This document shows, piece by piece, positions 57,379 through 60,508 of a stretch of DNA of 64,000 nucleotides (position 1 is the stretch's first letter; every line of letters starts with the position of its first letter). The position numbers and the translations under genes are program-made. Source of the DNA: Lysobacter luteus (GTDB taxonomy: Bacteria; Pseudomonadota; Gammaproteobacteria; Xanthomonadales; Xanthomonadaceae). The notes under the pieces are model-generated. The model saw only the letters and a list, made by a program, of their open reading frames with translations, had not been told where the DNA came from and searched no databases. The stretch lies in the NCBI RefSeq assembly GCF_907164845.1, contig NZ_OU015430.1, positions 1,230,001 to 1,294,000 on the forward strand. Reading direction: 5' to 3'.

Positions 57379-59460
<2,082 letters not shown>

Positions 59461-59529
59461 CGCAATGCTCCGTGGGGGATCCATCGGAGCTTGCGGGCGG
59501 TTACGTAAACGCAGTGTGCTGCGACGGGG

Positions 59530-60312
59530 TCAACGCCCCGCATCGGCTCCCGGAGGTGCCCCGGCGCCCTCGACGTACTTCTCGTGCAGCTTCACCGGCG
59601 GGCCCTGCCGCTCGCGGCGGCGGATCCACAGGTTGATCATCTCCACGAACACCGAGAACGCCATCGCCGCGTACACGTAACCCTTCGGGATATGCAGGCC
59701 GAACCCGTCGGCGATCAGCACCAACCCGATCATGATCAGGAAGCTCAGCGCCAGCACCTTGACCGTGGGGTGCCGCTCGACGAACTCGCTGATGGGCCGG
59801 GCGAAGGCGAGCATGAAGACGATCGAGGCGACGATGGCGGTGACCATCACCCAGCGCTCGTCGACCATGCCGACCGCGGTGATGATCGAGTCCAACGAAA
59901 ACACGATATCCAGCACCATGATCTGGGCGATGACCGCCATGAAGCTGGTGGCCGCACCGGGGGCGACCTGCTCGGAGGCGCCTTCGAGTTTCTGGTGGAT
60001 CTCGTGGGTCGCCTTGCCGATGAGGAACAGGCCGCCACCGATCAGGATCAGGTCGCGCCACGAGAACGCCTGGCCGAACAGCGAGAACAGCGGCGCGGTC
60101 AGCCCGATGATCCACGCAATCATGAACAGCAGGCCCAGGCGTGTGACCGCGGCGCCGAGGATGCCGAGCTTGCGGGCGCGGTCACGCTGCGCTTCGGGCA
60201 GCCTGCCTGCGAGGATCGAGATGAAGATGATGTTGTCGATGCCGAGGACGAGTTCGAGCGCCGTCAGCGTCGCGAGTGCGATCCAGATTTCCGGGTTCGC
60301 CAGTGCTTCCAT
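59530..60312 (-). CDS. TerC/Alx-family membrane protein under Mn riboswitch
   Basis: 260 residues. TerC domain with seven or so helices and acidic pairs in EIWIALATLTALELVLGIDNIIFISIL and VLDIVFSLDSIITAVGMVDE, the metal-binding motifs of the family. TerC/Alx proteins export manganese. The 5' leader carries a yybP-ykoY manganese riboswitch, which strongly supports that role. The ribosome site GAAGGA lies 8 bases before the ATG and can be hidden by the riboswitch. Confidence 0.92.
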   Translation of the reverse strand: MEALANPEIWIALATLTALELVLGIDNIIFISILAGRLPEAQRDRARKLGILGAAVTRLGLLFMIAWIIGLTAPLFSLFGQAFSWRDLILIGGGLFLIGKATHEIHQKLEGASEQVAPGAATSFMAVIAQIMVLDIVFSLDSIITAVGMVDERWVMVTAIVASIVFMLAFARPISEFVERHPTVKVLALSFLIMIGLVLIADGFGLHIPKGYVYAAMAFSVFVEMINLWIRRRERQGPPVKLHEKYVEGAGAPPGADAGR

Positions 60313-60320
60313 GGTTTTTT

Positions 60321-60457
60321 CCTTCGCGAAAGGGCAAACACGCCGGCGGTTGCCGGCGTGGGTTCGCGAAGGTCTTGCTCACACCCTGGAAGGTGCCGCC
60401 GGACCGGAGCGGGTGCTCGTATTGACGGCCGTGGCGATCGGGAGCTACTCCCCTTCG
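60321..60457 (-). promoter_or_regulatory. yybP-ykoY manganese riboswitch controlling terC translation
   Basis: Minus strand, reading from 60457: CGAAGGGGAGTAGC, GCCGTCAATACGAG and GAGCAAGACCTTCGCG match the family's invariant blocks (GGGGAGUAGC, GUCAAUACGA, AGCAAGACC). P1 pairs CGAAGG (60452-60457) with CCTTCG (60367-60372). The strand CCTTCGCGAA (60363-60372) is also the exact complement of TTCGCGAAGG (60321-60330), which contains the ribosome site. A hairpin (60339-60360) sits between. Metal-bound aptamer should free the ribosome site, an ON switch. Confidence 0.9.
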
Positions 60458-60508
60458 AGCGGCGAGGCTAGCACGCCCGCCGGCGCCTGGTGCGGTACTT
60501 TGCCGCCC

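Follow-up and report, generated by a model that had tools for sequence, protein, structure and literature searches.

An alx-type yybP–ykoY leader upstream of terC in Lysobacter luteus, very probably a translational Mn2+ switch with the ribosome site in its switch hairpin

What controls the expression of terC in Lysobacter luteus? The gene lies on the minus strand (59530–60312) of the 64,000-nucleotide stretch of DNA analysed here (the window) and encodes a TerC-family membrane protein of 260 amino acids (Pfam PF03741, TerC; E 7.6e-47). Its ATG (60312–60310) starts 8 nt past the GAAGG core of a Shine–Dalgarno (SD) sequence, GAAGGA (60325–60320). It is preceded on the same strand by a leader element (60457–60313), which lies within about 200 intergenic bases flanked by divergent genes: a pseudouridine synthase gene runs in the opposite orientation from 60509. 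An extended −10 promoter element, TGcTAGCCT (60465–60473, minus strand), ends 8 bases before the GAAGG of the first strand of the element, which is the 5′ strand of a helix named P1.1. The −10 is TG-extended in all eight terC leaders of the window's genus. Because a −10-like hexamer occupies nearly the same place across the 67 leaders compared, mostly 7–10 nt before P1.1, transcription probably starts at about 60458, so that the first bases of the RNA would be those of P1.1. Counted from this expected start, the leader is short, reaching the ATG after about 146 nt, and terC follows it directly. Beyond terC, a gene for a long catalase with a C-terminal domain (57379–59484, minus strand) starts about 70 bases further on; there is no obvious terminator in the gap, and read-through from terC could therefore put the catalase under the same control.

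The leader contains a yybP–ykoY (Mn2+) aptamer in the alx-type three-way form without P2 (60371–60456, minus strand). The earlier note had recognized the core blocks of this family on the minus strand; GGGGAGTAGC (60453–60444), GTCAATACGAG and AGCAAGACC, the last of which ends at 60371, are all present there, base for base. Its family assignment is upheld as well, given the matching blocks, the covariation of the fold and the detection of Escherichia coli alx by a model made from relatives. Of 149 genomes of the family, 33 contain the core sequence pattern, and 32 aptamers from relatives were aligned and used to build a covariance model, R1, which scores 87.5 bits on the window element (60368–60456). 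RNAalifold folds the 32 aptamers into P1.1, P1.2 (GCUC/GAGC), P3 with a two-base bulge and the seven-base L3 bulge, P3.2 and P4; the parts of the window aptamer are L1 (GGAGTA/AAGA), P1.2 (GCUC/GAGC), P3 with a 7-nt L3 bulge, UCAAUAC, P3.2 and P4. The 5′ strand of P1.1, CGAAGG (60452–60457), pairs with CCTTCG (60372–60367), and this helix is kept in 32 of 32 aligned relatives. The alignment shows two-sided changes in 14 pairs and a covariation score of 0.372, compared with 0.160 ± 0.010 in shuffled alignments, none of which (0 of 500) reached 0.372; when the partner strand is slid by one to three columns, pairing drops from 94% to 33–49%. The aptamer is a covarying RNA. P1.2 is invariant among the 32 aligned relatives and has compensatory changes elsewhere (GCCC/GGGC in leader L046, GCUU/AAGC in L050). 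A competing hairpin within the aptamer, GGGAG-UAG-CUCCC, had been prompted by the conserved CUCCC and was discarded: L046 has CCCCC with the P1.2 pairing kept. The residues of the metal site, L1 (GGGAGUA/AAGA) and L3 (a 7-nt bulge with UCA and an invariant A), are invariant in the 32 relatives and in the window, and the core residues of the window agree with the Mn2+ site described for Lactococcus lactis and Xanthomonas oryzae (PMC6754395). There is no room for P2 in the window aptamer, which makes it a three-way junction, unlike the four-way junctions of the crystal structures; P2 is not required for membership of the family, because the E. coli alx leader has no P2 either.

The Rfam model of the family, RF00080, which the earlier note expected to recognize the element, does not do so: it gives no match at the gathering score in the window and none when 401 bases of it were searched at E 10. 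This silence says little, because P1.1 and P1.2 are both absent from this 177-position model, which has a spurious long-range helix at its end, because the more canonical copy in the same genome obtains 41.9 bits and thus falls under the 45-bit cut-off, and because E. coli alx is likewise undetected at E 10; the RF00080 test is without power here. The current Rfam model thereby overlooks a large and well-conserved set of Mn2+ riboswitches, namely those of most sampled genomes of the family together with E. coli alx. R1, by its matches, covers 9 of the 10 genomes of the genus (the genome without a match being G003), 215 of the 297 genomes of the family, 8 of 369 in a sample of the class and 34 of 398 in a sample of the phylum; the phylum scan also yielded leaders (L089–L099) that precede alx-like genes in a single family. 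The genes downstream of the aptamer belong throughout to the TerC family, which is linked to Mn. In L046 a small gene of the Zn_ribbon_TFIIB type comes first after the aptamer and is followed by terC; the Pfam match (PF13453) itself comes from L022, where the first gene after the aptamer encodes a small Zn_ribbon_TFIIB protein.

R1 also matches the leader of E. coli alx (L100) with 46.1 bits (E 6.6e-10). Both alx and mntP are reported to belong to the yybP–ykoY family, with reporters that respond to Mn2+ (PMC9603457), and alx is reported to be controlled at the level of translation (PMC3874183). When the published base numbers of alx are mapped onto L100, every quoted landmark agrees. In the published inactive structure, hairpin C corresponds to GACCUUGCC-GGAA-GGCGAGGUC; it comes immediately behind the aptamer and cannot coexist with P1.1. 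One of its pairs is disrupted by the G134A mutation, which keeps alx RNA in its active state (PMC3874183). Since hairpin C belongs to the inactive state and G134A has this effect, the E. coli counterpart of the switch hairpin described next for the window is an OFF element.

In the window the exchange of strands involves the SD itself. The strand CCTTCGCGAA (60363–60372, minus strand) provides the 3′ strand of P1.1 or, alternatively, the 5′ strand of a helix that hides the SD, its partner being TTCGCGAAGG (60321–60330, minus strand), which contains the SD core. In the RNA, CCUUCGCGAA and UUCGCGAAGG can form a perfect helix of 10 bp that is mutually exclusive with P1.1. Between the two strands, inside the switch hairpin, lies an inner hairpin of 9 bp, CACGCCGGC-AACC-GCCGGCGTG (60339–60360, minus strand); similar inner hairpins with changed pairs are found in L024 and L026. 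The complementarity of 10 nt is beyond chance, as shuffling the 50-nt stretch 20,000 times never gave 10 and gave 9 six times. In the free fold the SD of terC is essentially fully paired, and opening it costs 5.9 kcal/mol without P1.1 and 1.3 kcal/mol with P1.1. The choice of the ten-base strand between two partners, the nine-pair hairpin that separates them and the hiding of the terC ribosome site had all been read from the DNA beforehand; the pairing is exact over its ten pairs, the hairpin is present (60360–60339), and the exchange is supported by the predicted opening of the SD. With P1.1 enforced, the SD of the window copy is still partly covered by weak local pairing. The switch hairpin, inner hairpin included, amounts to about −32 kcal/mol, and equilibrium folding gives the OFF form an advantage of about 9 kcal/mol; the decision must therefore fall kinetically, during transcription, before the strand with the SD emerges.

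Taken with the published work, these properties make it very probable that the window element is an alx-type yybP–ykoY Mn2+ riboswitch of the translational ON kind, with terC as its target. Because of its homology to the family and of the published mntP and alx studies, we infer that Mn2+ is the ligand, that it turns the gene on, and that translation rather than the RNA level is controlled. In E. coli mntP the ribosome-binding site is inaccessible without Mn and is freed by Mn (PMC11647493), and Mn2+ was measured to stabilize P1.1 in the X. oryzae riboswitch (PMC6754395). Transcription would begin at P1.1. At low Mn2+, CCUUCGCGAA would leave P1.1, or never form it, and pair over ten bases with UUCGCGAAGG, and the closed hairpin would bury the SD and leave terC untranslated. 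At high Mn2+, the metal bound between L1 and L3 would lock the aptamer and P1.1 while the RNA is being made, so that the shared strand would be occupied, the SD free and TerC produced. Because E. coli alx is responsive to alkaline pH as well, Mn2+ may not be the sole input.

The same aptamer and helices could have transcript level as their main output, if Rho attacked the untranslated leader and Mn2+ restored the coupling of transcription and translation. Rho has such an effect in E. coli mntP, besides the occlusion of the ribosome-binding site (PMC11647493), but there it adds to the control of the SD and does not replace it, and the window leader has only about 146 nt, with terC directly after; we regard a main role of Rho as possible but rather unlikely. 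A switch by intrinsic termination would have precedents in the yybP–ykoY riboswitches of L. lactis and X. oryzae yebN, which are described as transcriptional (PMC6754395, PMC11087558), and in the relatives L050, L012, L054 and L071, where a terminator follows the switch hairpin. However, no U run follows either the switch hairpin or the inner hairpin of the window and the terminator scan found no intrinsic terminator in the window leader, which makes this mode of control very improbable here.

Two further readings concern the signal. The element might respond mainly to alkaline pH through pausing of RNA polymerase, as first proposed for PRE-alx, with Mn2+ in a secondary role: alx, the closest characterized relative, is activated by high pH through pausing (PMC3874183) and is maximally expressed with Mn2+ plus high pH (PMC9603457). 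However, the metal-binding core is fully conserved and, by sequence comparison, the genus has lost the downstream D hairpin, whose pause belongs to the pH model; we consider a response of this kind improbable. As the ligand is assigned from sequence, the RNA might also belong to the family and bind another metal, but the L1/L3 core is identical to that of proven Mn2+ sensors and the downstream genes are throughout of the Mn-linked TerC family, so that another ligand seems very improbable. We thus retain a translational ON switch responding to Mn2+, which gives terC in the window's genus a directly testable candidate regulator.

How general is this arrangement among relatives? Of 63 distinct leaders, nearly all have a hairpin behind the aptamer that competes with P1.1; it is clearly missing in L033, L071 and L077, and L006 is doubtful. 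Its pairs vary in a compensatory manner: CCUUCGCCG/CGGCGAAGG in most of the family, CCUUCACCG/CGGUGAAGG in L069, CUUUGAU/AUCAAAG in L051 and CCUUCGCGA/UCGCGAAGG in the window's genus. There 30 to 80 inserted bases open out the hairpin, whose 3′ strand is formed by the terC SD. All eight distinct terC leaders of the genus keep 8–10 of the ten pairs around an intervening sequence that varies in length and content, and in all eight the cost of opening the SD is 5.9–9.4 kcal/mol without P1.1 and 0.7–2.1 kcal/mol with P1.1. In most other genera the gene begins only after another 45–310 bases or so, and by folding P1.1 makes no consistent difference to how much it costs to open the SD; control of the SD by the same hairpin was accordingly dropped for those genera. 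A leader peptide starting from the GTG beside GAAGG was also dropped for them, there being no spacing for an SD. In L012, L050, L054, L071 and L077 a clear intrinsic terminator separates the switch hairpin from the alx-type gene, which suggests transcriptional control behind the same sensor in some relatives.

A search of the 297 family genomes for an SD placed in the hairpin with a short insert returned the three short-type members of the genus and, outside it, a single case (L102/L116), the remaining matches being without an aptamer. The exception is a small genome of another genus, where the switch strand CCUUCGCCAA could pair with UUGGC and, through CCUU, with the AAGG within the SD of an alx-type gene (L116, also L102); direct burial of the SD may have arisen there independently. 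Placing the SD within the switch hairpin thus appears peculiar to the window's genus among nearly all the leaders examined. With slightly less than even confidence, we propose that the same P1.1-competing hairpin has been repeatedly rewired, from an indirect platform that acts through hairpin D, as in alx, or through a terminator, to a direct one in which the hairpin buries the SD; this would have happened at least in the window's genus and perhaps a second time, separately, in L116. If this is true, the lineage of this aptamer provides a natural series in which the output of a riboswitch changes with the sensor kept constant.

The sensor class and its translational ON control, as in mntP (PMC11647493), are already known, and the feature that appears specific to the genus is a compact platform in which the switch hairpin uses the SD as its 3′ strand. 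The window element shares with E. coli alx (PRE-alx) the aptamer core, the three-way form without P2, the TerC-family gene downstream, the match to R1, the succession of P1.1 and, at once, a competing hairpin (hairpin C), and presumably translational control. In contrast, the 3′ strand of alx hairpin C works via a second hairpin, D, before the SD; the window leader has no D hairpin and its SD is itself the 3′ strand of the switch hairpin. The mode of action proposed here, with the ribosome-binding site hidden without Mn and free with it, is that of E. coli mntP (PMC11647493), which by its published description has a longer leader (229 nt), a different gene and a Rho component. The metal site formed by L1 and L3 and the P1.1 helix, Mn2+-stabilized in X. 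oryzae (PMC6754395), are common to the riboswitches of X. oryzae yebN (PDB 6N2V) and L. lactis (PDB 4Y1I), but these have a four-way junction with P2, act by transcriptional antitermination and precede efflux pump genes. The yybP–ykoY riboswitch of Streptococcus pneumoniae mgtA has a three-way junction like the window element, according to a review (PMC9495176), and unlike it is transcriptional and serves a cation ATPase gene. The P2-less three-way junction was therefore dropped as a novelty, since E. coli alx shares it and that review describes a three-way junction for mgtA. The compactness of the window leader, which holds sensor, switch strand and SD within about 140 nt, would make it a simple translational Mn2+ switch for study. 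The second yybP–ykoY (Mn-riboswitch-like) copy in the same genome, the more canonical one that scored 41.9 bits with RF00080, lies on the minus strand (L001:1501–1595, corresponding to C1:781560–781654), has a P2 hairpin and is located upstream of a gene for a GDT1/UPF0016 cation antiporter (Pfam PF01169).
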